52,184 bases of DNA, taken from positions 1-52,184 of the forward strand of contig DATIJL010000005.1 of the NCBI GenBank assembly GCA_035478595.1. Direction: 5' to 3'. The notes under the pieces are model-generated. The model was given only the letters and a program-made list of their open reading frames with translations, searched no databases and had not been told where the DNA came from. This stretch comes from Candidatus Chromulinivoraceae bacterium (GTDB taxonomy: Bacteria; Patescibacteriota; Saccharimonadia; Saccharimonadales; Saccharimonadaceae). This document shows, in pieces, positions 1,427-52,038 of this stretch; within the stretch, counting starts at the first letter, position 1, and each line of letters begins with the position of its first letter. The translations under genes and the position numbers were made by a program.

Positions 1427-1884
1427 GTCGTAATTTTATAACGTCGCAGTGCGCATATACGGGCTTCATTGACTTGCCAGTGAGCGTGGCAAGCTACGCA
1501 CTTATATTCAGCTGTTTTTATTTGAATTCCCGTAGCGCTGCATTGGGGACATAAGCTTCGCGCATGGAGCCAATCACGGTAGGTATCCAGGGAGTCTTCT
1601 ACGAAATCATCTGGTATGGTTACTTCGTAAAAAGGTGCGAGGTGAGTCTGTGCGTATTGCCAAGCAGCGCGTTCCATCTTGATTAGCTCTATGTCGCGGG
1701 TATACGAAGCATGTTCTAAAACGGCGTGCGCCACTTCGTGGAGTAGCGAACTGGTATCGTCTGTATCCTTAGGATAGGTGATCGTTTCGTTCTCTGGTGA
1801 CCAATGGAACTCGTTGCGAGCGTCAAAAAGTAGGTCAGGATAAGCCGACTGTAGTCTATTTATCAGTAAGGTAATCGATTGCAT
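1420..1884 (-). CDS. Small zincin-like metalloprotease with C-terminal zinc ribbon
   Basis: A 154-residue cytosolic protein with no signal peptide. HEVAH at residues 49-53 is the HExxH zinc/catalytic motif; Glu71 is a plausible third ligand. The C-terminus has two CxxC pairs (residues 112-115 and 129-132) forming a rubredoxin-like zinc ribbon. The combination resembles SprT-like or ImmA/IrrE-like zincins, but I cannot assign the exact family. The ATG at 1884 lies inside the end of the upstream ROK gene (29-bp overlap), so the two are co-transcribed and probably translationally coupled. Its stop is inside the shared bidirectional terminator. Substrate unknown; SprT-type DNA-protein crosslink repair is one possibility by analogy only. 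Confidence 0.75.
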   Translation of the reverse strand: MQSITLLINRLQSAYPDLLFDARNEFHWSPENETITYPKDTDDTSSLLHEVAHAVLEHASYTRDIELIKMERAAWQYAQTHLAPFYEVTIPDDFVEDSLDTYRDWLHARSLCPQCSATGIQIKTAEYKCVACHAHWQVNEARICALRRYKITTN

Positions 1885-2671
1885 AGTAATAGCATCCGTA
1901 CACGACGGCCATTTCGGGGTGTTTTGCTTGCCTGAATTTAGGGCAGGGAATGTGCGGAGGTAGTTTCTCTCGTAGAATGGCTTTTAGTTGGTCGTCGTAC
2001 TGCTTAAAATAAGTACCGATACTACCACCAATAATGATGGTATCTGGCTGTAGGAGTGGTACGATCGCGAGAAACCCTCGGCTGATTCTATCGGCAATCT
2101 GATTCCAAGTTCGCTTGCTTGTAATGTCGCGAGCGTACTTGCCATACACCTCTACAATGGCGTGACCAGAGGCAAAACGCTCCCACTCCTGCACTAATCC
2201 ATCGTATTCAACGAGCATACGTCCGCCTTCGCTATAGCGAAGACCGGGATCGATTTTGCCATTTGTAGTAATACCTGTGCCGATACCAGTACTAATCGTG
2301 ACATAGAGAGATGAGATTGGCATTGGCGTTAATACGCGAGTCTCAGCTAGTCCAGCCAGATTAGCATCGTTTTCTATAAACACGGGAGCATTGCCAAAGA
2401 CTCCTGAGAGAGCCTTTTGTGCGGTGAAGTTTTTCCAGCCTAAATTATTACACCATATGGCCACACCATCTTTAATAATGCCGGGTAGTGCAACCACGAC
2501 GGCTTCTATCTTTTCGCCTCCATAGGTTTCTTGCAATGTGCGGCGCAAAAGAGCTACATATTCAGCTTCTCGACGAGGTGTCGGAAACTTTATGGTTTTA
2601 CCTAGCGTTCCATCGCGCTTGAAGCCGGCGATGAGCGTTTTTGTGGCCCCTGTATCTACCGCTACTAACAT
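1856..2671 (-). CDS. ROK-family sugar kinase-like protein
   Basis: A 271-residue protein of the ROK (repressor, ORF, kinase) family. It shows the N-terminal phosphate loop DTGATKT (residues 6-12), the sugar-site segment ENDANLAGLAE with the catalytic Asp, the second phosphate loop STGIGTGI and the C-terminal IIIGGSIG adenosine motif. It has no DNA-binding domain, so it is probably a kinase (glucose, N-acetylhexosamine or similar) in the cytosol. The usual ROK zinc signature (GHxxxxxxGxxCxCGxxGC) is absent; the corresponding stretch has no cysteines. First gene of a minus-strand pair with the zincin gene. A possible extended -10 (TGC-TAAACT, 2683-2678) lies 6 nt before the ATG, so the mRNA may be leaderless. 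Confidence 0.85.
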   Translation of the reverse strand: MLVAVDTGATKTLIAGFKRDGTLGKTIKFPTPRREAEYVALLRRTLQETYGGEKIEAVVVALPGIIKDGVAIWCNNLGWKNFTAQKALSGVFGNAPVFIENDANLAGLAETRVLTPMPISSLYVTISTGIGTGITTNGKIDPGLRYSEGGRMLVEYDGLVQEWERFASGHAIVEVYGKYARDITSKRTWNQIADRISRGFLAIVPLLQPDTIIIGGSIGTYFKQYDDQLKAILREKLPPHIPCPKFRQAKHPEMAVVYGCYYYAIDYLTDK

Positions 2672-2699
2672 ATTCGTAGTTTAGCATACAATTCACGAG

Positions 2700-2728
2700 T
2701 TGCGCCTTTGCCTATAAAAAGTTATAGT
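2700..2728 (+). promoter_or_regulatory. Promoter of the LPQTG protein gene
   Basis: TTGCGC (2700-2705), 17-nt spacer, TATAGT (2723-2728). GTGAGGG at 2741-2747 is the likely ribosome-binding site for the ATG at 2758. Confidence 0.7.
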
Positions 2729-2757
2729 AAAGAAAAGTAAGTGAGGGAATAACAGAT

Positions 2758-3132
2758 ATGACACGAACAAATCAGGGTGGTTCGGTGTTGAGCTTTGTGA
2801 TCGTCGCGCTTGTACTGGCTGGTTTGCTTATTGGTGGAGCATATACGATACGCAAACTTACCACGCAATCTGATCAGGCACAGTCGCCGCCAGCACCTGC
2901 CCAGCAGGATAAAACGCCTGATACGAATAAATCACAGCAAGGTGCTTCAAACACAAGCGATCAGCCGCAGGCTACGACGCCTCAATCTAGTACGCAGACA
3001 CAAAGCACGAGTCCGGCCCGGTTACCGCAAACGGGACCTAGGGAGCTTATAGGAAGTATCGTTGCCGTAGCCGCCCTTAGTGGTATGGCGGTATCGTATG
3101 CTCGTTCGCGTCGGCCAGAGCTCTCGCTTTGA
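2758..3132 (+). CDS. Minimal LPXTG-type cell-surface protein
   Basis: A 124-residue protein built almost only of export and anchoring elements. Residues 10-31 form a hydrophobic signal or membrane segment. About 55 residues rich in Gln, Ser, Thr and Pro follow. Then come LPQTG (residues 89-93), a second hydrophobic stretch (about 97-114) and a basic tail with RSRR. This is the layout of a sortase sorting signal (LPXTG, membrane span, positive tail). No folded domain is visible between the two ends, so it may be a spacer, a decoy or a short surface filament component. No sortase is in the window. It has its own promoter and sits just upstream of the rpsA promoter. The alternative is a plain bitopic membrane protein in which LPQTG is accidental. 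Confidence 0.7.
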   Translation: MTRTNQGGSVLSFVIVALVLAGLLIGGAYTIRKLTTQSDQAQSPPAPAQQDKTPDTNKSQQGASNTSDQPQATTPQSSTQTQSTSPARLPQTGPRELIGSIVAVAALSGMAVSYARSRRPELSL

Positions 3133-3158
3133 CTTTTTACCTCTATATGAGGTACAAT
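3129..3158 (+). promoter_or_regulatory. rpsA promoter with embedded dyad
   Basis: TTGACT (3129-3134), 18-nt spacer, TACAAT (3153-3158). The inverted repeat TACCTC-TATAT-GAGGTA (3138-3154) fills the spacer and overlaps the -10 element. Confidence 0.8.
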
Positions 3159-3231
3159 AGGAGGTAATCTAGGTGCACTATTTAAGCGTGTCTCCAGAAA
3201 TATCAATTAAGGAAGGAGTCTTTTAAGACTT

Positions 3232-4308
3232 ATGGCAACAAAAGCCGCAATAACAATGGATGATTTGCTCGCTTCTCACGAAGACAGCGTCAAGCAAATA
3301 ACAGCAGGAGAAATGGTAACAGGTACGGTTCTTTCACTTCGTAAACACGAAGTACTGATCGACCTTGGCGCTCAGGGTGTTGGTTACGTACCACGCCGCG
3401 AGGTTGGGTTCTCTCGTGCACTTAAAGAAGGTGATGAAGTCACTGCAAGCGTTGTCGACGCTGAACTCGACAACGGTTACTCGCTCCTCTCACTTCGTAA
3501 GGCTGCTAAGGATCGTGGCTGGGAAGAAGTAGCTGCAAAGATGGAGACTGGCGACATTATCGAAGTCTCACCATACGATGCAAATCGTGGTGGTCTACTT
3601 GTAGAGTTTGAAGGTGTCCGTGGATTCCTACCAGTTTCGCAATTGTCAGCTGAACACTACCCACGTGTTGGTTCAAGCGACAAAGATGAAATCCTCCAGC
3701 GCCTGAATGCTCTTGTTGGTCAAAATCTTAAGGTTCGTATCCTTGATAGCGACCGCAAAGCTAACAAGCTTATCTTTAGTGAAAAAGAAGCTGTTAAAGA
3801 AGGCCTCGCTGAGCGCTTTGAAAAACTTAAGGTTGGCGATACTGTTTCTGGTGTTGTAACCGGCGTCGTAGACTTCGGCGTATTTGTAAACGTTGAAGGT
3901 ATCGAAGGTCTTGTGCACATCTCAGAAATCAGCTGGGAGCGTGTGAACAACCCAAGCGACTATGTAAAGGTTGGTCAAACAATCGAAGCTAAGATTATTT
4001 CAATCGACAAAGATCGTTTGAGCCTTAGTATCAAGCAGCTTACCAAAGACCCATGGCTCGATGAAGTTGAGCAGTTCAAGGCTGGCGACAAAGTTGAAGG
4101 TACGGTTACTCGTATCACTCCGTTTGGCGCATTCGTGCAGATTAGCCCTGCTGTTGAAGCCCTCGTGCACATCAGTGAACTTGGTGACGGTAATGATGTA
4201 GACCCTGAGAAGGTCTTTACCCTGAACGAGCGCAAGAGCTTTACTGTTCTTGATATCGACAAGGACAATCGCAAGATCTCTTTGAGCCTTGCTGACAAGA
4301 AAAAATAA
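3232..4308 (+). CDS. rpsA: Small ribosomal subunit protein S1
   Basis: A 358-residue protein with four S1 RNA-binding (OB-fold) domains at about residues 26-90, 106-185, 200-268 and 284-353. The third and fourth carry the classic signatures DFGVFVNVEGIEGLVHISE and PFGAFVQ...ALVHISEL. S1 helps the 30S subunit bind and unfold mRNA. Four domains match the short S1 of Gram-positive and CPR bacteria rather than the six-domain enterobacterial form. GGAAGGAG at 3211-3218 precedes the ATG. It is followed 66 nt later by infB with no terminator, so the two are probably one translation operon. The large share of genes here without a Shine-Dalgarno makes S1's role in start selection of interest. Confidence 0.95.
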   Translation: MATKAAITMDDLLASHEDSVKQITAGEMVTGTVLSLRKHEVLIDLGAQGVGYVPRREVGFSRALKEGDEVTASVVDAELDNGYSLLSLRKAAKDRGWEEVAAKMETGDIIEVSPYDANRGGLLVEFEGVRGFLPVSQLSAEHYPRVGSSDKDEILQRLNALVGQNLKVRILDSDRKANKLIFSEKEAVKEGLAERFEKLKVGDTVSGVVTGVVDFGVFVNVEGIEGLVHISEISWERVNNPSDYVKVGQTIEAKIISIDKDRLSLSIKQLTKDPWLDEVEQFKAGDKVEGTVTRITPFGAFVQISPAVEALVHISELGDGNDVDPEKVFTLNERKSFTVLDIDKDNRKISLSLADKKK

Positions 4309-4374: not shown

Positions 4375-6147
4375 ATGAGCCAAGAAAAAGTACTTGTTGT
4401 CTCTGACTCGATTACTGTTGGCGAATTGGCTGAAACGCTCAATTTGCCTGTCACCACTTTGATTGGCGAGCTTTTTAAGAACGGTATCGTTGCAACAATT
4501 AACCAACGAATCGATTTTGAAACAGCAACTATCATTGTAGAAGAGCTCGGTCTCGACGTGACGCTCGAAAAACGCGAAAACTCACAAACAGTTGAGCGTA
4601 AAGTTCATCAATTATCAGATAAGGCTGTTGACCGTCCACCTATCGTGGCAGTCATGGGTCATGTTGACCATGGTAAAACTAGCCTTTTAGACGCCATTCT
4701 CGGTACAAAAACGACCGAAGGTGAAGCAGGCGGTATTACCCAGCACATTAGTGCTTATCAGACGGTTCGCAAAAACCGTTCTATTACTCTACTCGATACA
4801 CCAGGTCACGAGGCGTTCGCTGCGCTACGTCAACATGGCGCGACGCTTACTGACGTTGTCGTTATCGTTGTAGCGGCTGACGATGGTGTAAAGCCACAGA
4901 CAGTGGAGGCTATCCGCTTTGCCCAGAATGCCAACGCTAAAATTGTTGTTGCTATTAACAAGATGGATAAAGAAACCGCTAATCCTCAGATGGTTAAAAC
5001 GCAGCTTGCAACCGAGCATCACCTTAACCCAGAAGAATGGGGTGGTGATACGGTGATGGTTGAGGTAAGCGCAAAAACTGGCCAAAATATCGACAAATTA
5101 CTTGATATGGTCCTTTTGGTAGCTGACCTTGAAGAGCTTAAAGCGGATATCGACGTCCCTGCGGAAGGTCTTGTTATCGAATCTCACATGGAGACTGGTC
5201 GTGGTGCTGTAGTCGGTCTGCTCGTACAGCAGGGTAAGCTTAAACCAGGTCATTTCTTAGTTGCCGGCACTGCTTATGGTAAAATCCGCACACTTCTTGA
5301 CTTTAAAGGCCGCACACTTAAAGAGGCTGGTCCATCAACTCCGGTAACGGTAACTGGTTTTAAAGAACTACCTCAGTTTGGCGATGTCTTTGTGATCGTT
5401 AAGAACGAAAAAGAAGCTCGTCACGCCTCGGAGCGTGCTCGTATTGATCGTGAAAAGAGCGCGGCAACCACTAACGTAACGGGCGCTGACCTTCTTAAGA
5501 TGATGAATCAAAAGCATGATACCCAAGAGGTGAATGTCATCGTGAAGGCCGACGTGCAGGGGTCTCTGACGTCTGTAATGGACAGCCTTCGTCTCGTTGA
5601 TACCGGCGGGGAAGTTAATATGCGCATTATCGGCAGCGGAGTCGGTAATATCTCTGAAAACGACATTCGTCTTGCTGAAGGTGATAACACTATTATCTAT
5701 GGTTTTAACGTTGAGCTTTCACCAGCCGTAAAGCGCTTGGCTATGCGCGAAAAAATCCAAGTACGTCTCTTCAAAGTTATCTACGAACTGCTTGACGATG
5801 CTCGCCAGTCTATGGAAGCATTGCTTGCTCCAGAGGTTGTTGAGACTGAACTCGGGAAATTGACCATCAAAGGTATTTTCCGTACGATGAAAGATCAGAT
5901 TATTGCCGGTGGTGAAGTCACGAGCGGTAAAGCTGTACCTAATGTGCTTGCTCGTGTAAAACGTGGTGATGAACAAGTTTCAGAGGTAGAAGTCTTGAGC
6001 GTTCAACGCCAGCAGCAAGAAGCAAAAGAAGTCTTTGAAGGCGAAATGTGTGGTCTTTCGCTAAAAATCGAGAAAAAATTCCAACTTGAAGAGGGTGACA
6101 AGCTCGAGTTCTTTACCCGTGAACTTGTAAAAAGAACGCTTAAGTAG
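4375..6147 (+). CDS. infB: Translation initiation factor IF-2
   Basis: The GTPase that places initiator tRNA on the 30S subunit and promotes subunit joining. A short IF2 N-terminal domain (about residues 8-60) is followed by the G domain with G1 GHVDHGKT (95-102), G3 DTPGHE and G4 NKMD, then the beta-barrel domain, domain III and the fMet-tRNA-binding C-terminal domain (ending near [10 protein letters not shown]). At 590 residues it lacks the long N-terminal extensions of model bacteria. I place the start at ATG 4375, not at the upstream in-frame GTG 4351, because AAAGGAG (4362-4368) sits 6 nt before 4375 and would fall inside the longer frame. Downstream there is an intrinsic terminator; nusA and rbfA are not adjacent. 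Confidence 0.95.
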
Positions 6148-9191: not shown

Positions 9192-9729
9192 AATCAAGTG
9201 GTTGAAGCTCGCCTTTCTCGTCGAGCGTGAAGAAAGCTTCTGTTTGATCTTTAATATGATCAATAAAGACAACGCCGTTAGTGTGATCGATTTCGTGCTG
9301 AATAACACGCGCTAAAAAGCCTTCGGCTTTAAAACGCACTTCGTTGCCATCAATGTCGAGTGCTTTGACGCGGATTTTGGTATGGCGAGGTACGAGGCCG
9401 TAGATGCTATTAACGCTTAAGCAGCCTTCGTAATCGTTAACAATCTCGCCCTCGTATTTAACAATTTCTGGATTGATAAGAGGAGTAAAATCGCGAGTGG
9501 CCTTATCTTCAAAATCACTCCGAACAATCACAACGCGAACGTTGTGATCAACCTGAACAGCAGCAAGGGCAGCACTAATTTCGTGAGGACGAGAATCTTC
9601 CCAGTCGAGCGAAGCGCTGGTCATGTCTTCGACTAATTTGATAGCATCGTCATCGATAGCCCGTATTTTGGCAGATTTATTGCGTAGATGCGGGTTGGGC
9701 AGCGTAATAATGTCTTCTTTTTTCATCAC
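9151..9729 (-). CDS. def: Peptide deformylase
   Basis: Removes the formyl group from nascent proteins. The 192-residue protein has motif 2 YEGCLS (metal-ligand Cys) and motif 3 QHEIDHTNG (HExxH-type ligands and catalytic Glu). Motif 1, normally GxGLAAxQ, reads SAALAAVQ: the Gln is kept but both glycines are lost, which is unusual. The fold and length fit PDF; the divergent motif 1 may reflect a diverged CPR lineage. It begins 29 bp downstream of priA on the same strand and overlaps fmt, so priA-def-fmt probably forms one minus-strand unit. Together with fmt and map in this window it completes the start-Met processing set. Confidence 0.9.
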   Translation of the reverse strand: MMKKEDIITLPNPHLRNKSAKIRAIDDDAIKLVEDMTSASLDWEDSRPHEISAALAAVQVDHNVRVVIVRSDFEDKATRDFTPLINPEIVKYEGEIVNDYEGCLSVNSIYGLVPRHTKIRVKALDIDGNEVRFKAEGFLARVIQHEIDHTNGVVFIDHIKDQTEAFFTLDEKGELQPLDYDKHVKNNHILWD

Positions 9730-9758
9730 GCTCTATTATAACAGATACGGGCGTGCCG

Positions 9759-11699
9759 TTATAGCAAACTTGTAGGGTCGAGTTCAAATTGCCAATGCGT
9801 GGGAGGTAGATATTGCAGAGCGCTCGTTAGATCGGCTCGTTTCGATGATTTAAGGGTGAGCTGCCATCGGTATGTATCATGCTGCCGCTCATAAAAAGCT
9901 GGAGTTGGTCCAAGGATTTGAACGGTTTTTGGTAATTGCAAACGGAGATCGGCGGCAAACTTTTGTGCATTTTTAATGGCTGCAGCCTCTGTTTTGTAAA
10001 TACAAGTGAGCTTAAGAAGGTATGTATACGGTGGAAAACCACCTTGGCGGCGTTGCGAGAGCGCTGTTTGATAAAAATCAGCGTAATTCTGAGCAAGGCC
10101 GTTCGTAACGGCGGGGTGTGTAGGCTGGTAGCTCTGAACGATAACGCTTGTTGGATGATGTGATCGTCCGACTCGGCCGACAACTTGAGCGAGGAGCTGG
10201 AATGTACGTTCAGACGAACCATAATCAGGCAGGCTTAAGCCGGCATCTGCCTGGATGACGCCAACGGTGCGCAGTTTAGGGAGGTCGAGGCCCTTCGCGA
10301 TAACCTGAGTACCAATGATAATGTCGATATCACCATCATAGAGCTCTTTATAGCGCTCCTCGACGGATTCGCCGGTTTCATTATCACCATCAAAACGTGC
10401 AATAATTTTTTTAGGGAAGAGCTTTTTAAGTTCTGATTCTACGAGTTTTGTACCGATACCTTTATGAATGATGTCTGCAGCTCCACACTCCGGACAACTG
10501 GTAGGAACCTTTTCACGTAGTCCGCAAATATGACATTCTAGGCGGTGTTTATCCGCATGGAGTGTGAATGGTACAAAACAACGTGGACAAATAGCTGACC
10601 AGCCACAGTTTTCGCAGAGTGTTGTACTGGCACTACCGCGACGGTTATGGAATATTAGAGCCTGGTTTCCCTCACTCAAGGTTTGTTCAATTTGGGACAA
10701 TAGCTTGTCAGATAGAAAACGGTGTTTTTTGAAATGTGTACGTTTGGTCATATCGATAAGCGTGATAGTAGGCGAGACGGCATCGAGCCGGGCGCGCGTA
10801 TCCATTTTGATAATAGGGCGGCCAGAATGTTCAAACAAATAGTAGTCGGCAATTGACGGTGTGGCTGTACCAAAAACGACTCTTGCATCGTGCTGGCCTG
10901 CAAGAATACTTGCAGCACGCAGTGCGGAATAACGAGGCGATTGTTCCTGCTTAAAGCTGGGCTCGTGTGCTTCGTCGATGACAATAAGACCGATGTGGGT
11001 AAGTGGAGTAAATAATGCCGAACGTGGCCCTATAACGAGTCGGGGCGTTGTGCTCGTTAACGCGTCGAGCCATGCTTTGTGTCGCTCGGCCTCCGTCTGG
11101 CGTGAGTGGACTAAAATAATGTCTTCAAAATGATGTGAAAATTCATCGACAACCTGGGAGGTGAGGGCAATTTCAGGGACAAGAATAATAGTAGACTTGC
11201 CCGATTGCATGGTTTGCTTTGCGAGTTCTATGTAGACGGCTGTTTTGCCAGAACCGGTGATACCGTGTAAGAGTGCCGAGCCGGGCGTCATGTTAATGAT
11301 TGTGTCGTAGGCGGCTCGCTGATCTTTATTGAACACATTTTTTGTTCGATCTCGAAGTGCGATATGTGCAGCCTTAACAGTACTGCGGCGGGTTTTTTGC
11401 AGACCTCGAGGCAGAAATGTTTGAAGCACTATAGCAAGATGGGTCGCATAATAGGTACTCATCCATTCTGCCAATTTAACAAGAGGCTCTGGCAACGGAC
11501 TCGTTTCAATGACACTACTGATTTGCTTTGTGTCATAGGTAGGCTGCTGCACTTTTTTAGTAATGACACCGCTAAGGATTTTTTTGCCCACTTCTATTGT
11601 AACGATCTGTCCAATAGGAAGTGGCGTCTCTGAGGCATAGGTAAAGGCAGCGCTGTTTGCGCGAATAATCTGCGTTGGAGCCACCTCATAATAGTGCAT
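9759..11699 (-). CDS. priA: Primosomal helicase PriA
   Basis: A superfamily-2 DNA helicase that restarts stalled replication forks. From the chosen start it has 646 residues: N-terminal 3'-OH-binding region, Walker A GITGSGKT, DEAH box (VIDEAHE), then a zinc-binding insertion with four CxxC pairs (CENC, CPRC, CHIC, CPEC), helicase motifs V/VI (GTQVIAKGLD, QVVGRVGR) and the C-terminal domain. I start at ATG 11699 (MHYYEV). A consensus TATAAT on the minus strand (11712-11707) is 7 nt before it and overlaps the alternative ATG 11708, which would therefore not be transcribed. The message is predicted leaderless. Divergent from the phosphoribosyltransferase-like gene. Confidence 0.93.
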   Translation of the reverse strand: MHYYEVAPTQIIRANSAAFTYASETPLPIGQIVTIEVGKKILSGVITKKVQQPTYDTKQISSVIETSPLPEPLVKLAEWMSTYYATHLAIVLQTFLPRGLQKTRRSTVKAAHIALRDRTKNVFNKDQRAAYDTIINMTPGSALLHGITGSGKTAVYIELAKQTMQSGKSTIILVPEIALTSQVVDEFSHHFEDIILVHSRQTEAERHKAWLDALTSTTPRLVIGPRSALFTPLTHIGLIVIDEAHEPSFKQEQSPRYSALRAASILAGQHDARVVFGTATPSIADYYLFEHSGRPIIKMDTRARLDAVSPTITLIDMTKRTHFKKHRFLSDKLLSQIEQTLSEGNQALIFHNRRGSASTTLCENCGWSAICPRCFVPFTLHADKHRLECHICGLREKVPTSCPECGAADIIHKGIGTKLVESELKKLFPKKIIARFDGDNETGESVEERYKELYDGDIDIIIGTQVIAKGLDLPKLRTVGVIQADAGLSLPDYGSSERTFQLLAQVVGRVGRSHHPTSVIVQSYQPTHPAVTNGLAQNYADFYQTALSQRRQGGFPPYTYLLKLTCIYKTEAAAIKNAQKFAADLRLQLPKTVQILGPTPAFYERQHDTYRWQLTLKSSKRADLTSALQYLPPTHWQFELDPTSLL

Positions 11700-11706
11700 A
11701 TCTTTC

Positions 11707-11714
11707 ATTATACT
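11707..11714. promoter_or_regulatory. Overlapping divergent -10 elements (priA and PRTase-like gene)
   Basis: TATAAT on the minus strand (11712-11707) and TATACT on the plus strand (11709-11714) share four base pairs. The whole divergent intergenic gap is only 29 bp, so RNA polymerase cannot occupy both promoters at once. A second plus-strand candidate -10 is TAAAAT at 11717-11722. Confidence 0.65.
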
Positions 11715-11728
11715 GGTAAAATAAGCAT

Positions 11729-12385
11729 ATGTATTTTGAAAGTCGCGCACAGGCTGGGCAGGTTTTAGCTGCGGAGTTGGTGGAGAAGTATCGATATGAG
11801 AACTGTGCTGTCGTCGCGTTAAGTGATGGGGCTGTTCAAGTTGGGGAGCAAATTGCGAGCGCTCTGCACTGCATATTAACCATGCTTTTGGTTGAAGAAA
11901 TCCCAGTGCCTGGAGAGAACATGAGTTTTGGCGGTGTTTCTCAGGATGGTGGTTTTACGTATAATGGCATGTTTAGCGCGGGCGAGATTGAGGAATATAC
12001 CGGAGAGTTTCACGGTTATCTTGAAGAGCAAAAACGTGAAGCGTTTCAACGAATGAATCGTCTTCTTGGTGATGGCGGCATTATTGATAGCGACATGCTT
12101 CGTGATCATGTAGTTATTCTGGTTTCTGACGGTCTTGATAATGGATCAGCTATAGATGTTGCTATGGATTTTCTAAAACCAATTCGGGTTACAAAACTTA
12201 TTGTTGCGACACCGTTTGCAACCGTACCGATGGTAGACAAGTTGCACATTGTTGCCGATGAGCTGCATATCTTGGATGTTAAGGAGAACTTTATGGGCAT
12301 AGATCATTATTACGAGAAGAACGATATTCCTTCACATGAGGAAACGATAGCTAAAATTAACCAAATCGTGCTTAATTGGCGCTAA
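11729..12385 (+). CDS. Phosphoribosyltransferase-like protein with degenerate PRPP loop
   Basis: A 218-residue soluble protein with a PRTase type I fold. The beta strand and PRPP loop region reads VVILVSDGLDNGSA, where active enzymes have D-D-G-x-A-T-G-x-T; the second Asp and the Thr residues are altered. The N-terminal part (MYFESRAQAGQVLAAEL...VVALSDGAVQVGEQIA) matches the start of the family related to predicted PRTases fused to dienelactone hydrolases. It may bind a nucleotide without transferring, or have a shifted substrate. The start at ATG 11729 has no Shine-Dalgarno and its -10 lies 6-14 nt upstream, so the leader is absent or very short. Followed by its own gap and a winged-helix gene. 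Confidence 0.7.
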   Translation: MYFESRAQAGQVLAAELVEKYRYENCAVVALSDGAVQVGEQIASALHCILTMLLVEEIPVPGENMSFGGVSQDGGFTYNGMFSAGEIEEYTGEFHGYLEEQKREAFQRMNRLLGDGGIIDSDMLRDHVVILVSDGLDNGSAIDVAMDFLKPIRVTKLIVATPFATVPMVDKLHIVADELHILDVKENFMGIDHYYEKNDIPSHEETIAKINQIVLNWR

Positions 12386-15365: not shown

Positions 15366-15394
15366 TTGCACCGGAGGGATTTCTCTGTTACAAT
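15366..15394 (+). promoter_or_regulatory. rpsU promoter, near-leaderless
   Basis: TTGCAC (15366-15371), 17-nt spacer, TACAAT (15389-15394). Only 10 nt separate the -10 from the ATG at 15405, leaving a 5' leader of about 4 nt. The GGAGGG at 15373-15378 is inside the promoter spacer and would not be in the mRNA. Confidence 0.85.
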
Positions 15395-15404: not shown

Positions 15405-15620
15405 ATGGTACAAGTAACACGTAAAGATGAACGCGAAGCGAACGAGAACATTCTCCGTCGTTTCAACCGCAAAGTATTGCAGAGCGGTGTCCTCGCTGAA
15501 GCTAAAGCAGCAATGCGCTTCTCGAAGTCACTCAGCAAGACTGAGCGTCGTGCAAAGGCGATTATTCGCAAAGAGCGCAAAGCTGATAAGTTAGCTAAAG
15601 CCCGATTGGGGATCCGCTAA
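15405..15620 (+). CDS. rpsU: Small ribosomal subunit protein S21
   Basis: A 71-residue, very basic protein with the S21 core (ENILRRFNRKVLQSGVLAEA followed by a Lys/Arg-rich helix). S21 lies near the anti-Shine-Dalgarno end of 16S rRNA. I start at ATG 15405 (MVQVTR), not the upstream TTG 15366, which forms part of the -35 element. The -10 just upstream predicts an mRNA with about 4 nt of leader, so this ribosomal gene would be translated without a Shine-Dalgarno. It is followed after 3 nt by yqeY, the usual rpsU-yqeY arrangement. Confidence 0.92.
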   Translation: MVQVTRKDEREANENILRRFNRKVLQSGVLAEAKAAMRFSKSLSKTERRAKAIIRKERKADKLAKARLGIR

Positions 15621-17401: not shown

Positions 17402-18034
17402 TAAGTGGGCAACTCGCCGGCCGATAGCTTCGGACGGCTCGATGACTTTTGCATCGCCATTTGCGATCTCTGAAATGACGTCCTTAATCCAGTGATAGTG
17501 AGTGCAGCCTAGTACAATCACATCAGCACCTTGGTCGCAAACTTGGCGGATAGTTGTCTGGATGTGTTGTCGGTTGATTTGATTGTTCTCAATGAGGTAT
17601 GCCCAATCGTGACAATCAGGTTCAAGTACGGTGATGTTGCTGGCAAAACGTTTTTTTGTCGCGTTATACCGATCACTAGCTAGGGTTGCTGGAGTGGCGC
17701 AAACGGCAACTATATCGGTTTTTGTTAACTGTGAGGCGGTTCTTACCATTGGTTCAATGCCAATGAATTTTTGTTGGGGGTAACGGGAGCGAAGCGTAGG
17801 CAGGGCAATGGCCGTTGCGGTGTTACATGCAATGACCACAACATCACATTCCTCCGAAAGAAGCGGTTGGATAGCTGTGTCGGTTAGACGAATAATCTCG
17901 TCGGGTGTTTTGCTGCCATAGGGAACGTGCTGATGATCGTTAACGACGATCATCCCGGCTTTTGGAAATGTTTGTTGCAGGGCAGCGGCTACCGCTTCAC
18001 CACCCACGCCAGAATCAAATACGCCTAATTTCAT
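17387..18034 (-). CDS. murI: Glutamate racemase
   Basis: Makes D-glutamate for peptidoglycan. The protein (215 residues from the chosen start) shows GVFDSGVGG near the N-terminus, both catalytic cysteines (ACNTAT and GCTHYH) and the YGSKT stretch. I start at ATG 18034 (MKLGVFD). The extended -10 TGC-TATACT on the minus strand (18047-18042) lies 7 nt before it, so the message should be leaderless and the longer frame to 18058 cannot be transcribed from it. Divergent from ftsA, coupling wall precursor supply and division. No Shine-Dalgarno. Confidence 0.93.
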   Translation of the reverse strand: MKLGVFDSGVGGEAVAAALQQTFPKAGMIVVNDHQHVPYGSKTPDEIIRLTDTAIQPLLSEECDVVVIACNTATAIALPTLRSRYPQQKFIGIEPMVRTASQLTKTDIVAVCATPATLASDRYNATKKRFASNITVLEPDCHDWAYLIENNQINRQHIQTTIRQVCDQGADVIVLGCTHYHWIKDVISEIANGDAKVIEPSEAIGRRVAHLLELG

Positions 18035-18041: not shown

Positions 18042-18117
18042 AGTATAGCACTAGGCATTATTTAGGGCGGTAAAGAGCGCGTGAGCGCTAGGCAAATGTG
18101 TCCATAAGCGCTATACT
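18042..18117. promoter_or_regulatory. Divergent murI-ftsA promoter region with direct repeats
   Basis: murI: extended -10 TGCTATACT (minus, TATACT at 18047-18042). ftsA: TAGGCA-like -35 (18089-18094), 17-nt spacer... TATACT (18112-18117), 7 nt before the ATG at 18125. Near-identical direct repeats AGCACTAGGCA (18047-18057) and AGCGCTAGGCA (18084-18094) sit at each promoter and could bind a shared regulator. Confidence 0.65.
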
Positions 18118-19430: not shown

Positions 19431-20648
19431 ATGCCTGAAGTAAAACCAAGCGAGATACAGACATTTGCCAGCATTAAAGTTGTTGGTGTTGGTGGTGCTG
19501 GCGGCTCTGCTGTAAACCGCATGAAGGATGCCGGCCTAACCGGTGTTCAATTTATTGCAATGAACACGGATGCGCAAGCACTACATAATTCTAAAGCAGA
19601 TACTAAAATTCATTTAGGTCACAATACTACAGGAGGCCTTGGTGCCGGAGCCGATCCTTCACAGGGACAGCGTGCCGCCGAGGAATCACGTGACGATATC
19701 CGTGATGCACTTGAAGGTGCTGACATGGTCTTTGTTACTATTGGTGCTGGTGGCGGTACTGGTAGCGGCGCAGGGCACGTAGTAGCTGAGATTGCTCGTG
19801 AGATGGGTATTCTAGTTGTCGGTGTTGCAACAAAGCCGTTCAGTTTTGAAGGTGAAAAGCGCCGTCAGAACGCAGAGTGGGCTATTGCACAGCTTGGTCG
19901 CCAAGTTGATACACTTATTACCATTCCGAACGACCGTCTTTTGCAGACGATTGATCGCCGCACGCCGCTTCTTGAGACATTTAAGATTGCTGACGATGTA
20001 CTTCGTCAGGGTGTGCAGGGTATTTCCGAGCTTATCACTGAACATGGTCTCATTAACCTCGACTTTGCCGATGTAAAGGCTATCATGAGCAACGCAGGGT
20101 CTGCACTTATGGGTATTGGTCGTGCGAGTGGAGACGATCGTGCCGCACAGGCTGCTCAGCAAGCTATCGAATCACCGCTAATCGAAGTATCAATTGATGG
20201 TGCTAAGGGCGTTCTCTTCAACGTTACTGGTGGCTACGATATGAGCATGAGCGAAATCCAAGAGGCTGCTGAAATTATTACCAGCGCCGTTTCGCCCGAT
20301 GCTAACATTATTTTTGGTGCAACACTCAAGCCGGAACTTGAAGACGAACTCATCATCACTGTTATCGCAACTGGTTTTGATAGTGCGTACTTCCACGAGC
20401 AGGCAGCTCAACTAGAGACGCCAACCGGTCTTGTTGCTGACACTAAGGCCGCTGCTAAGCCAATCTCTGAAGAAGTAGACGAAGCCGTACAAGATATTAG
20501 CATGGATCTTGATCAGTCTGATGCCGCTGCAGCATTTGCTGAAGAACCAACCCATGATATCTGGAGCACTCCACAAGACGATGACGAGTCGGATACGCCT
20601 GCGTTCCTTCGCCGCCGCAAGAAGAACAAGCATTCTGACGAATCCTAA
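19431..20648 (+). CDS. ftsZ: Cell division protein FtsZ
   Basis: Tubulin-like GTPase that forms the division ring. The 405-residue protein has [14 protein letters not shown] at the nucleotide site, the tubulin signature GGGTGSGAG, the T7-loop region [11 protein letters not shown] and a C-terminal linker rich in acidic residues. It ends with the conserved peptide [11 protein letters not shown], which binds FtsA. GGGGGAG at 19413-19419 lies about 11 nt upstream of the ATG. A weak promoter (-10 TATACT at 19389-19394) suggests extra transcription besides read-through from ftsA. nrdR follows after 13 nt. Confidence 0.96.
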
Positions 20649-22321: not shown

Positions 22322-22843
22322 GTGCAACAAACATTCACTATTGCTCCAATGACCGAAGCTGATATAGAGCCTGCTACCGCTATGCGTTTGCAGTCATGGC
22401 TGGATACCTATGTGAATAACGAGGCAGGCGTAACCCGCGAATGGGTTGAGGCTCGTAATAAGCAGCAACTATCACCAGAAAAAGTAGCTGCACGTCTTGA
22501 ACGATTTAAGACTGCAAAAGTTGTCGGGTGGGTTGCAAAAGATGAGAATGAAAAGATTATTGGTGTCGCAACTCCCTACGCAGATGCGGATGGCGTACAA
22601 CATGTCGGGTCTATATATGTCGACAAAGCTTGGCATGGAACGGGTATCGGAGGAAGGCTAATGGAGAAAATAATTGCATGGTCTGACCCAACAAAGGCAA
22701 TTGTTCTTAGTGTTGCAGCCTATAATGAACGCGCTAAGGCTTTCTATCGCAAATGGGGATTCGAAGAAATTCCCGATTCTAAAATGCTTCATGAAGATGT
22801 AATTCCCATAATAGTAATGACCAGAAAAGGAGACAAGCAATGA
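22322..22843 (+). CDS. GNAT-family N-acetyltransferase
   Basis: A 173-residue acetyl-CoA-dependent transferase. It shows the GNAT motif A VGSIYVDKAWHGTGIGGRLMEK (acetyl-CoA loop HGTGIGG), motif B NERAKAFYRKWGFEE near residues 138-152, and typical N-terminal strands. GTG start at 22322 with TAAGGA upstream. Its end overlaps the ileS start by 4 bp (ATGA), so it is co-translated with ileS and controlled by the same T-box. Substrate unknown; the isoleucine control hints at a link with aminoacyl or translation quality control, but this is speculative. Confidence 0.88.
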   Translation: MQQTFTIAPMTEADIEPATAMRLQSWLDTYVNNEAGVTREWVEARNKQQLSPEKVAARLERFKTAKVVGWVAKDENEKIIGVATPYADADGVQHVGSIYVDKAWHGTGIGGRLMEKIIAWSDPTKAIVLSVAAYNERAKAFYRKWGFEEIPDSKMLHEDVIPIIVMTRKGDKQ

Positions 22844-25795: not shown

Positions 25796-25823
25796 TTGAT
25801 ACCCATATTGCTAATGGTATACT
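25796..25823 (+). promoter_or_regulatory. Pilin promoter, leaderless
   Basis: TTGATA (25796-25801), 16-nt spacer, TATACT (25818-25823); the ATG at 25831 is 7 nt downstream of the -10. Confidence 0.85.
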
Positions 25824-35532: not shown

Positions 35533-35561
35533 ATAATAGTATCGTAAACTACTTAAGGCAA
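35533..35561 (-). promoter_or_regulatory. Leaderless promoter of the 227-residue protein gene
   Basis: TTGCCT (35561-35556), 17-nt spacer, TATTAT (35538-35533), ATG at 35524. A dyad ACGAT-AATAGT-ATCGT spans the -10. Confidence 0.75.
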
Positions 35562-35865: not shown

Positions 35866-36051
35866 ATGAGCGACTCACTGCCAAATGACGAAAGAGTCAA
35901 GGAGATAATTGCCAAGGCTCTTGAGATTGGGGTGATCGACAACGATCTCGCTAACGATCTTCGCAAGGAGAGCCCGGGAGAGGCCCTCAAGGCACTATCT
36001 GCCATCTTGGCCCTAAAGGGGTATAGCCTGAGAAGACTCTTTCCGGAATAG
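35866..36051 (+). CDS. Small soluble orphan protein, GC-rich
   Basis: A 61-residue helical, charged protein (MSDSLPNDERVKEIIAKAL then IGVIDNDLANDLRKE, ending GYSLRRLFPE). Not recognised. AGGAGG 5 nt before the ATG and an AT-rich promoter upstream make it a good gene. Lysine and glutamate codons favour AAG and GAG, unlike the native genes. A 13-bp hairpin follows (36078-36108) without U-run. It belongs to the run of GC-rich small genes between 35.5 and 37.0 kb. Confidence 0.7.
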   Translation: MSDSLPNDERVKEIIAKALEIGVIDNDLANDLRKESPGEALKALSAILALKGYSLRRLFPE

Positions 36052-37266: not shown

Positions 37267-37298
37267 CCTTACTATACTTTTTATAGTAGAATTGTAGT

Positions 37299-37676
37299 AT
37301 GCATTTATCCGACGAAGCATTCGACCATCTTATCTCACAGGCAATGGATGAGCTGCCTCAAAAGTATATTGAAGGTCTCGATAACGTTGTCGTTACATAT
37401 GCAGATGAGCCAACCGAAGAACAAAAACAAAAGTACCATCTCGACGAACACCATATACTGTTAGGTCTTTACGAAGGCATTCCCTTAACGCAACGTGGCA
37501 ATAATTATACATTTGTGTTGCCGGATAAAATTACGTTGTTCAAACATTCTATTCTTGCCGTCGTACACGACGAGGCGGGACTTTTTGAACAAATTAAGCG
37601 AACACTGTGGCATGAAATAGCTCACTATTATGGCCTTAATCATGATCGCATCCACGCTATTCAGAGACACACGTAA
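37299..37676 (+). CDS. Zincin-like metallopeptidase (PF06262 type)
   Basis: A 125-residue protein with HEIAHYYGLNHDRI, an extended HExxHxxGxxH/D zinc motif near the C-terminus, and the N-terminal start FDHLISQAMDELP. This matches the small 'possibly metallopeptidase' family (formerly DUF1025, zincin_1). Its role is unknown. A -10 element TAGAAT (37287-37292) is 6 nt before the ATG, so the message may be leaderless. A palindromic terminator overlaps its stop. Cytosolic; no signal peptide. Confidence 0.88.
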   Translation: MHLSDEAFDHLISQAMDELPQKYIEGLDNVVVTYADEPTEEQKQKYHLDEHHILLGLYEGIPLTQRGNNYTFVLPDKITLFKHSILAVVHDEAGLFEQIKRTLWHEIAHYYGLNHDRIHAIQRHT

Positions 37677-39111: not shown

Positions 39112-39183
39112 GCTACGCATAATATACATATAAAACCAGACTCTCGCTTTTTTAGCAAAAGTTGTTTATACTTTGGGACAAGG

Positions 39184-40080
39184 GTGAAGACAAAGAAGAA
39201 AAACACACAAGTCACGCGGCTTCAAAAATGGCTCCGGCACCATCTTAAAATGGCGCTCGTACCACATGGAGCCAATCAATATAGACCGCATCTCATTCGC
39301 CGTCACAGTTTATTACTCGTGGCGGTTCTTGTTTTTATTATGCAGGTTAGCTTGAGTTTTTCAGCCAACGGTACAGTTCTTGGCGCGCAACAACCAATTA
39401 CACCGAACGATCTTTTAAGTGAAACAAATCAGCAACGCTCGAGTAACAATCTTCAGTCACTAAAGCTAAGCGACGCGCTGTCTAGAGCGGCATTCATGAA
39501 GGCACAGGACATGTTCAAGCAGCAGTACTGGGCGCATACCGCGCCGGACGGTAAAACACCATGGTATTGGTTTAATGAAGTAGGTTACAACTATGCCTAT
39601 GCGGGTGAAAATTTGGCTAAAGATTTTTCTACGGCTGGCGCAGTGACAACTGCCTGGATGGCTTCGCCAGATCATCGGGCTAACATCTTAGACGCACACT
39701 ATACCGAGATGGGGATTGCAACTGTAGATGGTTCACTTGAAGGTCGACCAACAACACTTGTTGTGGTGCTTTATGGAGAGCCAGTTGCAACGCTTGCCGC
39801 AGCTTCTGCTCAACCGTCACTAAAGGCCTCAACCAGTGGTTCGATTAGTATTATGACCCGAGTTGCCATGATGGCAGAATCACTTACGCCTGCTGCAGTC
39901 ATGGTTTTGATAGTTTTGACGATCATGGCTGGTGTGGCGTTGTTGACACAAGCTAGTCGTAATAAATTACCAAAGATGTTCCGCACAACATGGTATCGTC
40001 ACCACGGTGCATACAAGTTCGTTAGTATCATTTCGCTTGCTGTTGTGTTTATAAGTTTGTACAGCGGCGGCCAGATCTAG
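39184..40080 (+). CDS. CAP-domain (SCP/YkwD-like) membrane protein
   Basis: A 298-residue protein with an N-terminal membrane segment (about 44-62), an extracellular CAP domain (residues about 78-200 with FKQQYWAHTAPDGKTPWYWF, YAGENLAKDF and AWMASPDHRANILDAHYTEMGI) and two C-terminal membrane helices. CAP domains bind lipids or carbohydrates or act as putative proteases; bacterial YkwD types have uncertain roles. GTG start with a TATACT -10 (39167-39172) only 11 nt upstream, so the leader is about 4 nt. It probably acts with the preceding surface protein. Confidence 0.88.
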   Translation: MKTKKKNTQVTRLQKWLRHHLKMALVPHGANQYRPHLIRRHSLLLVAVLVFIMQVSLSFSANGTVLGAQQPITPNDLLSETNQQRSSNNLQSLKLSDALSRAAFMKAQDMFKQQYWAHTAPDGKTPWYWFNEVGYNYAYAGENLAKDFSTAGAVTTAWMASPDHRANILDAHYTEMGIATVDGSLEGRPTTLVVVLYGEPVATLAAASAQPSLKASTSGSISIMTRVAMMAESLTPAAVMVLIVLTIMAGVALLTQASRNKLPKMFRTTWYRHHGAYKFVSIISLAVVFISLYSGGQI

Positions 40081-40092
40081 TATCCTAGAGTA

Positions 40093-40920
40093 ATGAAGAT
40101 TTCAAAAGCCGTTATTCCAGTTGCAGGATGGGGCACACGCCGCCTACCGATTACCAAAGCAATTGAAAAATGTATGTTGCCAATCGGAAACCGTCCGCTT
40201 GTTGATTATGTGGTGCAAGATTGCATTGCCGCGGGTATCACTGATATCTACTTTGTGGTAAGTGAGTGGATGACGCAGTTACAAGCGTACTACAGCGATA
40301 ACGGTGTGCTGGATGCGTATCTTATCGGCAACGGCAAAGAGGGGATGCTGTCACTTGTACGACCACCGCAGAATGTATCATTCCATTTTATTGTGCAAAA
40401 TACCAACGGCAAATACGGTACCGCTATCCCGGTCAGTCTGGTTATGCCCAAACTCGAGGTAGGTGAGTCTGTCGTAGTACTGATGGGCGATGATTTTATA
40501 TATAATGCCGATGGAAGTAGTGAAGTGCGCCGTTTGCTTGATGCAACACCAGAAGGTGGAAACGCCATGCTCGGAGTGAATGTTCCACGTGGTGCAGTGA
40601 GCCACTACGGTGTGCTTGACCTTAACGAGCGTCATGAGTTTGTTCGGATTGTCGAAAAGCCACGACCAGAGGATGCACCAAGCACGCTCATTAACGTCAG
40701 TAAGTACGTGTTGAACTACGATGTTATGAAGGCAATCACGAGTTATTCGGCAGTACCGATTTCAGGTGAATATTATATTACTGAACCAATTAACCAATAC
40801 GTTGCTACTGGCGGAAGCGTGGTGGTTGTTCCGGCGCATGGTCAATATCTTGATGGCGGAAGTGTTGAGGGTTGGTTACATGCCAATAATATCGTACACG
40901 GAACGTCAGCAGCTCAGTAA
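40093..40920 (+). CDS. galU: UTP-glucose-1-phosphate uridylyltransferase-like
   Basis: Makes UDP-glucose for the envelope locus. The 275-residue protein shows the nucleotidyl loop GWGTRRLPITKAIEK, MGDDFI, GVNVP and VEKP motifs of GalU. The usual PKEMLP reads EKCMLP, a departure from the canonical enzyme, though the Lys is kept. It could use a related sugar phosphate. A -10 TATCCT (40081-40086) is 6 nt before the ATG, so the message is probably leaderless. A parS-like site lies inside it at 40581. Confidence 0.88.
   Translation: MKISKAVIPVAGWGTRRLPITKAIEKCMLPIGNRPLVDYVVQDCIAAGITDIYFVVSEWMTQLQAYYSDNGVLDAYLIGNGKEGMLSLVRPPQNVSFHFIVQNTNGKYGTAIPVSLVMPKLEVGESVVVLMGDDFIYNADGSSEVRRLLDATPEGGNAMLGVNVPRGAVSHYGVLDLNERHEFVRIVEKPRPEDAPSTLINVSKYVLNYDVMKAITSYSAVPISGEYYITEPINQYVATGGSVVVVPAHGQYLDGGSVEGWLHANNIVHGTSAAQ
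40581..40596 (+). other. Possible parS-like site
   Basis: TGTTCCACGTGGTGCA differs from the common parS consensus TGTTTCACGTGAAACA at four positions, with the core CCACGTGG intact. It lies about 2.6 kb upstream of parA, inside galU coding, and may be coincidental. Confidence 0.25.
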
Positions 40921-44958: not shown

Positions 44959-45551
44959 GTAAATGGGTAGATCCGCATATTTACGGGTCCAACTACATCG
45001 TAAAAGGGAATAAGTCCTAGACCGCTTCGTGAGTCGTATGAATAATCACCTTCGCGGTGGTCACCTGAAACGAATAGCGTACCGTCGGTTACGACCGTAT
45101 CAACATTGCCACTGGTTGGCGAACCGGGATGGCTCGTAGTGTCGTTTGCCTGAGCTTTATCTGGTTGAAAACCATTGGGGTTTTGCTGATTATAAACCGT
45201 TAGGACGCCGTCTTTTACGACGACTCGCTCACCCGGGAAGGCAATAACACGTTTTACAATAAATTCATCGCCAGTACCGGCATTGTATTGTGGGTTTTTA
45301 AATACGATAATTTGTCCGCGGTTTGGAATGTATGTTTTGTTTTGTAATTGTGCCCATGTAACAGGTAGGCGATTAACGATGAGGCGATCGCCAGTATATA
45401 GCGTAGTCTCCATACTGGGACCAAGTACATTAAAGCTACGAAAAACGTATGTATTAATAAGAAGTGTGCCAATTAGTACGCAGACGATAAAGATAAGGAT
45501 ATTGAGTGCATCCTTAAAAAGAGGGTGGCGCTGCATAAATGTGGCTTCCAT
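44940..45551 (-). CDS. lepB: Signal peptidase I
   Basis: Cleaves signal peptides of exported proteins. The 203-residue protein from ATG 45551 has one N-terminal membrane helix (about 13-34), the catalytic Ser46 in GPSMETT, Lys100 in VKRVIAFPGE and the box E stretch SGDHREGDYSYDSR. The start is set by the promoter: minus strand TTTACA (45587-45582), 17-nt spacer, TATAGT (45564-45559), ATG 7 nt later; the longer frame to 45626 is excluded. So the message is leaderless. Shares its terminator with parB. Confidence 0.93.
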   Translation of the reverse strand: MEATFMQRHPLFKDALNILIFIVCVLIGTLLINTYVFRSFNVLGPSMETTLYTGDRLIVNRLPVTWAQLQNKTYIPNRGQIIVFKNPQYNAGTGDEFIVKRVIAFPGERVVVKDGVLTVYNQQNPNGFQPDKAQANDTTSHPGSPTSGNVDTVVTDGTLFVSGDHREGDYSYDSRSGLGLIPFYDVVGPVNMRIYPFTKVRFF

Positions 45552-45558: not shown

Positions 45559-45587
45559 ACTATACACCTTTTCGTGGCCTCTGTAAA
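45559..45587 (-). promoter_or_regulatory. lepB promoter, leaderless
   Basis: Minus strand TTTACA, 17-nt spacer, TATAGT; the last base of the -10 is 7 nt from ATG 45551. Confidence 0.8.
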
Positions 45588-48119: not shown

Positions 48120-48152
48120 GCATTGATTCAGTTTAGGAGGGTAGGCTAAAAG

Positions 48153-51269: not shown

Positions 51270-51272
51270 AAT

Positions 51273-51599
51273 TTACTGCTTTTTCTGGGTTGCTAAAAGG
51301 ACGATTCCAATGATAAGCGCGGGAAGCCAGGTTAAAACTCCCACGGTACCTGTGAGGAAGAGAAGTACGTTAAGGCCGGTTGTAAGCGCTGACTGGCTAC
51401 CGAACAGTTCGCTGTCGGTTGAAGAATTTCCGGCAAAAACAAAGTTCATCAACGCATATATAATAACCGTTACGATAATAAGTGCCGTAGGTGTGACAAG
51501 CAAGGTTATGCCAGCGATCTTGCGCCCGTTACGCTTTTTTGATGGTTCGAGCGGCTGTGGTACTGGCGGATTGTACTGGTCTTGCTGTGGTTGCATCAT
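51273..51599 (-). CDS. Small membrane protein with Pro/Gln-rich N-terminus
   Basis: A 108-residue protein. A Pro/Gln-rich cytoplasmic start (QPQQDQYNPPVPQPLEPSKK) is followed by two membrane helices (about 28-50 and 77-102) and a short KKQ tail. Similar layout occurs in DUF4190-like or tandem-helix proteins, but no family is certain. AAAGGAAG sits just before the ATG pair (51599/51596). A promoter with minus-strand TACAAT (51629-51624) lies after the rpmE terminator, and prfA follows 3 nt after its stop. Confidence 0.65.
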   Translation of the reverse strand: MMQPQQDQYNPPVPQPLEPSKKRNGRKIAGITLLVTPTALIIVTVIIYALMNFVFAGNSSTDSELFGSQSALTTGLNVLLFLTGTVGVLTWLPALIIGIVLLATQKKQ

Positions 51600-51623
51600 C
51601 TTCCTTTGGTTATCTTCTCTTAT

Positions 51624-51652
51624 ATTGTAACAAAAAGAGACCTCTTTATCAG
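51624..51652 (-). promoter_or_regulatory. Promoter of the orf-prfA-prmC unit
   Basis: Minus strand CTGATA (51652-51647), 17-nt spacer, TACAAT (51629-51624). It overlaps the rpmE terminator. Confidence 0.55.
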
Positions 51653-51664
51653 TAGTGAGGTCTC
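51632..51664 (-). terminator. rpmE terminator
   Basis: On the minus strand stem GAGACCTC/GAGGTCTC (51664-51657 and 51644-51637) with a 12-nt loop and TTTTT. Confidence 0.85.
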
Positions 51665-51679
51665 CTTAAGGTAAAAACG

Positions 51680-52000
51680 CTAGTTTTCGGTTTTTTTACT
51701 TTTGAGGGCGTTAAGCTTTTTAGCCTTAGACGCAAGTTGTTCCTTGCGAGCTTCAGCGGCAGCAAAACGAGCCTTAAAGCGGTCGACACGACCTTCGGTG
51801 TCGATGATCTTTTCTTCGCCCGTAAAGAATGGGTGAGAAGCTGATGAGATGTGGACTTTAACGAGTGGGTATTCGTTGCCATCTTCCCATTTAATAGTTT
51901 CGTTGGTTTGCGCTGTACTTTGTGTAAGGAAGGCAAACCCAGCCACGTCGTCGCTAAATACGACCGGGCGGTAGTTAGTTGGGTGTATACTGCTTTTCAT
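51680..52000 (-). CDS. rpmE: Large ribosomal subunit protein L31, type B-like
   Basis: From ATG 52000 a 106-residue protein beginning [18 protein letters not shown], with [20 protein letters not shown], matching the non-zinc (type B) L31 core; the zinc cysteines of type A are absent. The Ala/Lys-rich C-terminal extension is long. The frame to 52123 is excluded because the promoter (minus strand TTGACT 52038-52033, 17-nt spacer, TACAAT 52015-52010) leaves only 9 nt before ATG 52000. The leader is about 2 nt, so the gene is nearly leaderless. Confidence 0.92.
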
Positions 52001-52009
52001 ATCCCGACT

Positions 52010-52038
52010 ATTGTATCTGTTTTTGGGGGAAAAGTCAA
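52010..52038 (-). promoter_or_regulatory. rpmE promoter
   Basis: Minus strand TTGACT, 17-nt spacer, TACAAT; start codon 9 nt past the -10. Confidence 0.85.

Follow-up and report, generated by a model that had tools for sequence, protein, structure and literature searches.

Promoter -10 hexamers adjoining start codons point to leaderless or nearly leaderless mRNAs for many first genes of transcription units in a Saccharibacterium

The 52,184-nucleotide (nt) stretch of DNA analysed here (the window), which is contig C5 of a genome of 1,135,732 bases in 19 contigs, raises the question of how genes are started in which a hexamer resembling a promoter -10 element lies only a few nucleotides before the start codon, and whether the mRNAs of such genes have a leader at all. 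Following the results below, it is very probable that in this organism many genes that stand first in their transcription unit have a housekeeping-type promoter fused to the start codon, and that their mRNAs are leaderless or nearly so. The source genome is a Saccharibacterium; when named genomes were scanned for FtsZ and the best 80 of 575 relatives were kept, the top matches were mostly titled Candidatus Saccharibacteria, with identities of at most 86%. In the window the elements concerned are the following, where the gap is the number of nucleotides separating the -10 hexamer from the start codon, hexamers are scored against TATAAT, and ORF denotes an open reading frame:

2678..2683, minus strand: weak -10 TAAACT (4/6) of the ROK kinase gene, gap 6, ATG at 2671; 2 orthologues only
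9735..9740, minus strand: -10 TATAAT of def, gap 8, ATG at 9726
11707..11712, minus strand: -10 TATAAT of priA, gap 7, ATG at 11699
11717..11722, plus strand: -10 TAAAAT of a phosphoribosyltransferase ORF (Pfam PF00156), gap 6, ATG at 11729
15389..15394, plus strand: -10 TACAAT of rpsU, gap 10, ATG at 15405; near-leaderless
18042..18047, minus strand: -10 TATACT of murI, gap 7, ATG at 18034; 2 orthologues only
18112..18117, plus strand: -10 TATACT of ftsA, gap 7, ATG at 18125
19431..20648, plus strand: ftsZ, the contrasting gene behind ftsA, led by a Shine-Dalgarno (SD) site
25796-25801, plus strand: -35 TTGATA of the pilin gene, spacer 16
25818..25823, plus strand: -10 TATACT of the pilin gene, gap 7, ATG at 25831
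35533..35538, minus strand: -10 TATTAT of the 35524 orphan ORF, gap 8, ATG at 35524
37287..37292, plus strand: -10 TAGAAT of the zincin gene, gap 6, ATG at 37299; 6 orthologues, too few to count
39167..39172, plus strand: -10 TATACT of a CAP-domain ORF (Pfam CAP), gap 11, GTG at 39184; the weakest case
40081..40086, plus strand: weak -10 TATCCT (4/6) of galU, gap 6, ATG at 40093; 5 orthologues, too few
45559..45564, minus strand: -10 TATAGT of lepB, gap 7, ATG at 45551
45582-45587, minus strand: -35 TTTACA of lepB, spacer 17
52010..52015, minus strand: -10 TACAAT of rpmE, gap 9, ATG at 52000; near-leaderless
52033-52038, minus strand: -35 TTGACT of rpmE, spacer 17

Since an earlier note on this DNA had used the -10 when choosing starts, the distances were counted again with starts that are blind to promoters, taking either the first ATG of each ORF or, as an alternative, the start with the best coding score. 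The sample comprised 343,572 bases (~30% of the genome), i.e. the window together with 16 stretches (one, 603 bases long, was left out), with 338 genes predicted by our own gene finder. Among the 122 head-to-head genes (those with the upstream neighbour on the opposite strand), 32 had a strict signal (at least 5/6) at gap 6-8 from the first ATG, compared to ~3.6 expected (Poisson p ~7e-20). Gaps 6, 7 and 8 accounted for 16, 11 and 5 genes, versus 1.2 per position in shuffles, and the lower edge is sharp at gap 6, gaps 0-5 together yielding 2 genes. Coding-score starts gave nearly the same numbers (16, 11 and 6). Of the co-directional genes, the signal was present in 8/24 of those 20-49 nt behind their neighbour and in 4/72 of those less than 20 nt behind. 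In the window alone, 5/12 head-to-head genes carried it (control mean 0.6), and the 3/26 co-directional genes that lie at least 20 nt behind their neighbour were not significant (p 0.10). The same pipeline on 250 kb of E. coli K-12 gave the signal in 0/70 head-to-head genes and, if any near start was accepted, in 2/70 (control 2.6). The peak at 6-8 nt, the absence of which the earlier note had named as refuting its claim, is therefore present on 30% of the genome, which confirms that the -10 at a fixed distance before starts is real, and makes it stronger than a reading of the sequence alone could show.

Within the window, all 12 gaps that had been listed were reproduced, and def (9726) and the phosphoribosyltransferase ORF (11729), which were absent from that list, have the same layout. 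The description of the -10 elements as good stands for ten of the 12 genes, at 5 or 6 matches to TATAAT, and fails for the ROK kinase gene and galU, at 4/6 only. Well-spaced -35 elements, claimed for several genes, were found for lepB and rpmE, moderately for the 35524 orphan (TTGCCT, 4/6, spacer 17) and not convincingly for rpsU, which is weak in the window (best 3/6); lepB also scored for an SD-like 4-mer. Start codons at or near the predicted 5' end follow for gaps 6-8 (0-2 nt), while gaps 9-11 (rpsU, rpmE and the CAP-domain ORF) would be near-leaderless and not strictly leaderless. The starts that had been corrected by their promoters fit homology, both in the orthologue starts of ftsA, priA and lepB and in the family models for murI, ftsA and priA, which begin within a few residues of them; for murI, residue 4 of the corrected protein falls on position 2 of TIGR00067 (145.9 bits, cut-off 146.65). 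The rpmE start matches position 1 of NF002462, and rpsU is named S21 from matches scoring under the curated cut-offs.

The layout is also conserved at the level of individual genes. Orthologues were searched for in matching genomes, of which the best 30 out of 38 to 40 were used, and each start was placed by aligning the orthologue with the window protein, giving preference to ATG and ignoring promoters (no alignment row for 9/94 ftsA and 3/30 def loci; rows that were duplicates, at an edge or without a start were removed, i.e. 3 for ftsA, 4 for ftsZ, 4 for lepB and 2 for rpmE). A hexamer of at least 5/6 at gap 6-11 preceded 80/82 orthologues of ftsA, 28/30 of priA, 24/26 of lepB, 22/27 of def, 25/30 of rpsU and 22/28 of rpmE; at gap 6-8 these numbers are 73/82, 26/30, 18/26, 19/27, 6/30 and 6/28, respectively. 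Thus, the strictly leaderless gap is not usual for rpsU or rpmE, the modal gap of which is 9-10. In ftsZ, directly behind ftsA, the hexamer was found in 2/90 orthologues and an SD site in 81/90. A larger set, covering 23 window genes with at least 8 orthologues (none being found there for pilin, the 35524 orphan or the CAP-domain ORF), gave the same picture at gap 6-11: ftsA 79/81, rpsU 72/79, priA 46/52, lepB 22/25, def 32/41 and rpmE 21/27, with 16/25 for the phosphoribosyltransferase at 11729 (11 of them at gap 6-8, the other 5 at gap 9-11). Values were near zero for ftsZ (2/88), rplU (0/11), gene 20725 (0/62), gene 12464 (1/54), map (3/72) and others, and mixed for adk (11/74), the tRNA synthetase at 22840 (16/43), parB (5/27) and gene 50199 (7/21). 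Outside Saccharibacteria, the ftsA layout is mostly absent. A recurring ATAAGCG or TTATG box stands directly 5' of the ftsA -10 in many of the loci L018-L042 and L181-L240, and is possibly a regulator site.

That the organism would use two kinds of start, a promoter adjoining the start codon or an SD site, had been proposed in the earlier note and is borne out by neighbours such as ftsA (80/82 led by a -10) and ftsZ (81/90 led by an SD site). The further proposal that ribosomal, division and secretion genes form the leaderless class did not hold: ftsZ is SD-led, and of 11 rplU orthologues none has the hexamer and 6 have an SD site, so that a functional class of leaderless genes is rejected, on few genes per function. 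SD sites are rare before genes with the hexamer (10/163 in eight genomes of the own order), and among the orthologues they were found in 5/82 for ftsA, 3/30 for priA, 2/27 for def and 4/26 for lepB. Over 1006 orthologue rows, 319 had only a -10 (gap 6-11), 363 only an SD site, 32 both and 292 neither; gene 12763, for example, has no -10 and an SD site in 2/26. The tRNA synthetase at 22840 (class I by family match, IleRS being our own reading) divides into 16 -10-led and 23 SD-led orthologues, with 0 having both and 4 neither.

The apparatus for SD-led initiation is nevertheless in place. The 16S rRNA gene of the genome itself was not found in the assembly; of the 14 16S loci taken from relatives, five (L043, L044, L046, L051 and L055) showed a stretch other than the 3' end, and the anti-SD is intact in the 9 relatives where that end was displayed. 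IF3 was detected in 19/21 genomes, and the window itself holds two relevant genes:

3232..4308, plus strand: likely ribosomal protein bS1, with 4 S1 domains
4375..6147, plus strand: translation initiation factor IF2

It follows that the parts for SD initiation coexist with the leaderless layout, and there is no support for the idea that this layout arose because the anti-SD or initiation factors were lost. The 16S 3' end reads GGATGGATTACCTCCTTTCT in L045, L047-L050 and L052-L054, and departs just before the anti-SD from the usual form, which is GGTTGGATCACCTCC. In G000, the C-terminal domain of IF3 occurs twice (C9:369-620 and C19:155-406, close to the beginning of two contigs), perhaps as an assembly duplicate or through a strain mixture.

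Whether the hexamer is a promoter element at all has to be decided against the rival that survives best, although it is an improbable one: in some Bacteroidota an A/U-rich, SD-free ribosome-binding signal precedes the start codon, and the hexamer could be such a signal, in which case the mRNA would begin farther upstream. The upstream regions are AT-rich and many starts have neither signal (the 292 rows above), which would suit it. However, in the eight own-order genomes a TTGACA-like element (at least 4/6) is enriched at spacer 17, being present in 29/163 genes with the hexamer, with 13/163 at spacer 18 and a mean of 7 over the 21 other spacers tried. Among orthologues with a -10, it stands at spacer 17 in 15/21 rpmE and 38/72 rpsU, the two genes, out of eight examined, with the best -35 elements, while ftsA divides between spacer 17 (22/79) and spacer 18 (27/79). 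Moreover, the TG of an extended -10 is conserved before the hexamer in def (T 26/32, G 30/32), rpsU (T 61/72, G 64/72) and the synthetase at 22840 (T 16/16, G 15/16), ftsA keeping the G alone (70/79), and in the own genome the hexamer is rare before genes that follow closely on their neighbour. The A/U-rich ribosome signal is therefore unlikely in the own order. It is less firmly excluded in the other classes of the phylum, since there the -35 peak is missing: of 87 genes with the hexamer in eight genomes, 7 have the element at spacer 17 and 9 at spacer 13.

Further support for a promoter comes from the initiator. Among 60 promoters with a leader in the eight own-order genomes, the sixth nucleotide after the -10 is a pyrimidine in 65% and the seventh a purine in 71%. 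In genes with gap 6, the seventh is the A of the ATG and the sixth a pyrimidine in 59/72, compared to a pyrimidine before the start in 60/141 SD-led close genes (p 4e-8). All three promoter features (-35, extended -10 and initiator) are thus present for the own order, unevenly by gene.

From these observations we infer the 5' ends of the mRNAs and the route of initiation as follows. The promoter would consist of a TATAAT-like -10, often preceded by TGn or by the G of that triplet alone, and sometimes a TTGACA at spacer 17. RNA polymerase, starting ~7 nt past the -10, would begin on the A of the ATG at gap 6 and 1-2 nt upstream of the ATG at gaps 7-8, leaving no leader or one of 1-2 nt. With the promoter pressed onto the start codon, translation would therefore proceed without the usual ribosome-binding site, i.e. 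the ribosome would begin on the 5'-terminal AUG in the absence of SD pairing, while other genes (e.g. ftsZ behind ftsA) would be started via an SD site on the same ribosomes, given the anti-SD kept in the 16S rRNA of relatives. For rpsU and rpmE the same layout predicts a leader of ~2-4 nt, which could not hold an SD site; perhaps their gap sets the first RNA nucleotide, which is one idea.

A slightly poorer candidate than the A/U-rich signal, and likewise improbable, is that the promoters are real but the polymerase starts farther downstream, or upstream promoters supply the mRNA that is translated, so that transcripts beginning with AUG are not the ones that make protein. The range of gaps, from 6 to 11, is in line with this, as are genes with the hexamer closely behind a same-strand neighbour (10/81 ftsA rows). 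On the other hand, the sharp edge at gap 6 would be expected if, with transcription starting ~7 nt past the -10, selection acts against transcripts that lose the start codon; the protein sequences also show the starts to be conserved, and SD sites before them are scarce. Finally, the pattern is almost certainly not an artefact of fitting start codons to promoters, which was tested and rejected: starts had indeed been picked by their -10 and AT-rich DNA offers hexamers near some ATGs, yet the peak stays with first-ATG, coding-score and homology-set starts and appears neither at control gaps nor in E. coli.

The spread of the signal was followed in head-to-head genes of other genomes, pooled at gap 6-8 with any near start allowed. 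Four genomes of the family and three of the order together gave 51/168 versus 12.2 expected, one genome of the same class 3/20 versus 0.5, and eight genomes from the phylum's other classes 36/172 versus 10.2, so that the other classes show a weaker peak, and not in every genome. Of 61 named loci (53 titled Saccharibacteria, Saccharimonadia or Saccharimonadales, with neighbourhoods shared among loci), 33/100 genes had the signal. In 15 named loci of other members of the candidate phyla radiation (CPR; three titled only 'bacterium'), it was found in 3/20 head-to-head and 6/91 far co-directional genes, which is suggestive at best. Genes less than 20 nt behind their neighbour were above control in G015 (6/37), G143 (7/43), G176 (5/28) and G045 (5/33), the last three being genomes of other classes. 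Before such genes G143 and G108 have few SD sites (0.07 and 0.03).

A number of these and other observations weigh against the interpretation of the hexamer as a promoter fused to the start of unit-first genes, or against its wide spread. About 70% of the head-to-head genes in the own genome lack a strict signal, longer transcripts from more distant promoters may exist, and the signal is weak (10/105) in co-directional genes at least 50 nt behind their neighbour. There is no clear -35 at spacer 17 for priA (3/46) and def (3/32), nor the -35 peak in the other classes mentioned above. Divergent or far genes without a -10 also often have a pyrimidine before the start (277/446, p 8e-4 versus gap-6 genes), because of which the initiator evidence is real but moderate. 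That so few rows have both signals is in part a mechanical effect, since the SD window is partly occupied by the hexamer itself. The excess in close-behind genes of G015 and G143 means that there the signal is not limited to unit-first genes, and head-to-head genes show no excess in G024 (2/18 versus 1.6) or G161 (1/14 versus 1.7).

A wider proposal can therefore be held only tentatively, and is rather more doubtful than probable: leaderless initiation would be shared, and perhaps ancestral, in Patescibacteria (in between about one fifth and one third of head-to-head genes), with the mode fixed per gene across the whole class, and with the ribosomal-protein genes that have the strongest promoters as a separate group, with a conserved leader of 2-4 nt that perhaps sets the first RNA nucleotide. 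One ribosome would then serve two standard start routes. If true phylum-wide, it would mean that a reduced epibiont lineage relies on a start route of which the E. coli control shows no sign, and that SD-independent initiation could be tested in a natural setting.

The mechanism as such is established in other bacteria. In Actinobacteria and Deinococcus-Thermus notably, TA-led leaderless genes make up more than 20% of genes in both phyla according to PMC3160421, in which, as here, a TANNNT-type -10 has its first T ~12 nt before the start codon and occurs alongside SD-led genes. The present case differs in being a mid-GC Saccharibacterium with a layout that is nearly invariant per gene across relatives; the main text of that paper contains none of the terms TM7, Saccharibacteria and candidate division. 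In Deinococcus-Thermus, a -10 adjoining the ORF likewise gives leaderless mRNA for ~30% of ORFs, supported there, in another phylum, by experiments (PMC12340547); Patescibacteria, Saccharibacteria and TM7 are absent from its main text, although its figures for all bacteria may include the group. A leaderless class in GeneMarkS-2 is summarised in StartLink (PMC9581028), and YchF, which is retained in CPR, promotes leaderless translation (PMC12641178). 'Leaderless' occurs in PMC7441243, PMC6851277 and PMC10434106 in references or for other matters, as does Shine-Dalgarno for other matters in PMC12369343 and PMC10849945. Among the matches listed, no report of leaderless mRNAs in Saccharibacteria or Patescibacteria was found, nor a paper on transcription start sites in Saccharibacteria or TM7x; most subscription papers were outside the search and this absence is no proof. 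The lineage is thus one without a report in the literature searched. Programs that seek SD sites may miscall starts in this large, mostly uncultured lineage, a rule based on the -10 could correct N-termini (here those of murI, ftsA and priA), and leaderless designs could be tried for expression cassettes in Saccharibacteria.

Some minor observations concern the arrangement of genes in the window. The starts of priA (minus strand) and the phosphoribosyltransferase ORF (plus strand) are 29 nt apart (11699-11729), with their -10s nearly back to back, so that the -35 region of each lies inside the other gene. Divergent double promoters are not a general rule, since the strict signal was found on both sides in 3/60 head-to-head pairs of the own-genome sample (this count took another priA start, so that the priA pair scored as one-sided). 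Between 28000 and 34000 the GC content is lower (~0.40) and genes 27653, 28425 and 30750 have at most one orthologue each in the Saccharibacteria loci; this region is possibly acquired. Between 35560 and 36800, little coding sequence is predicted and several inverted repeats are seen by eye, along with a small ORF at 35866-36051 preceded by an SD site.

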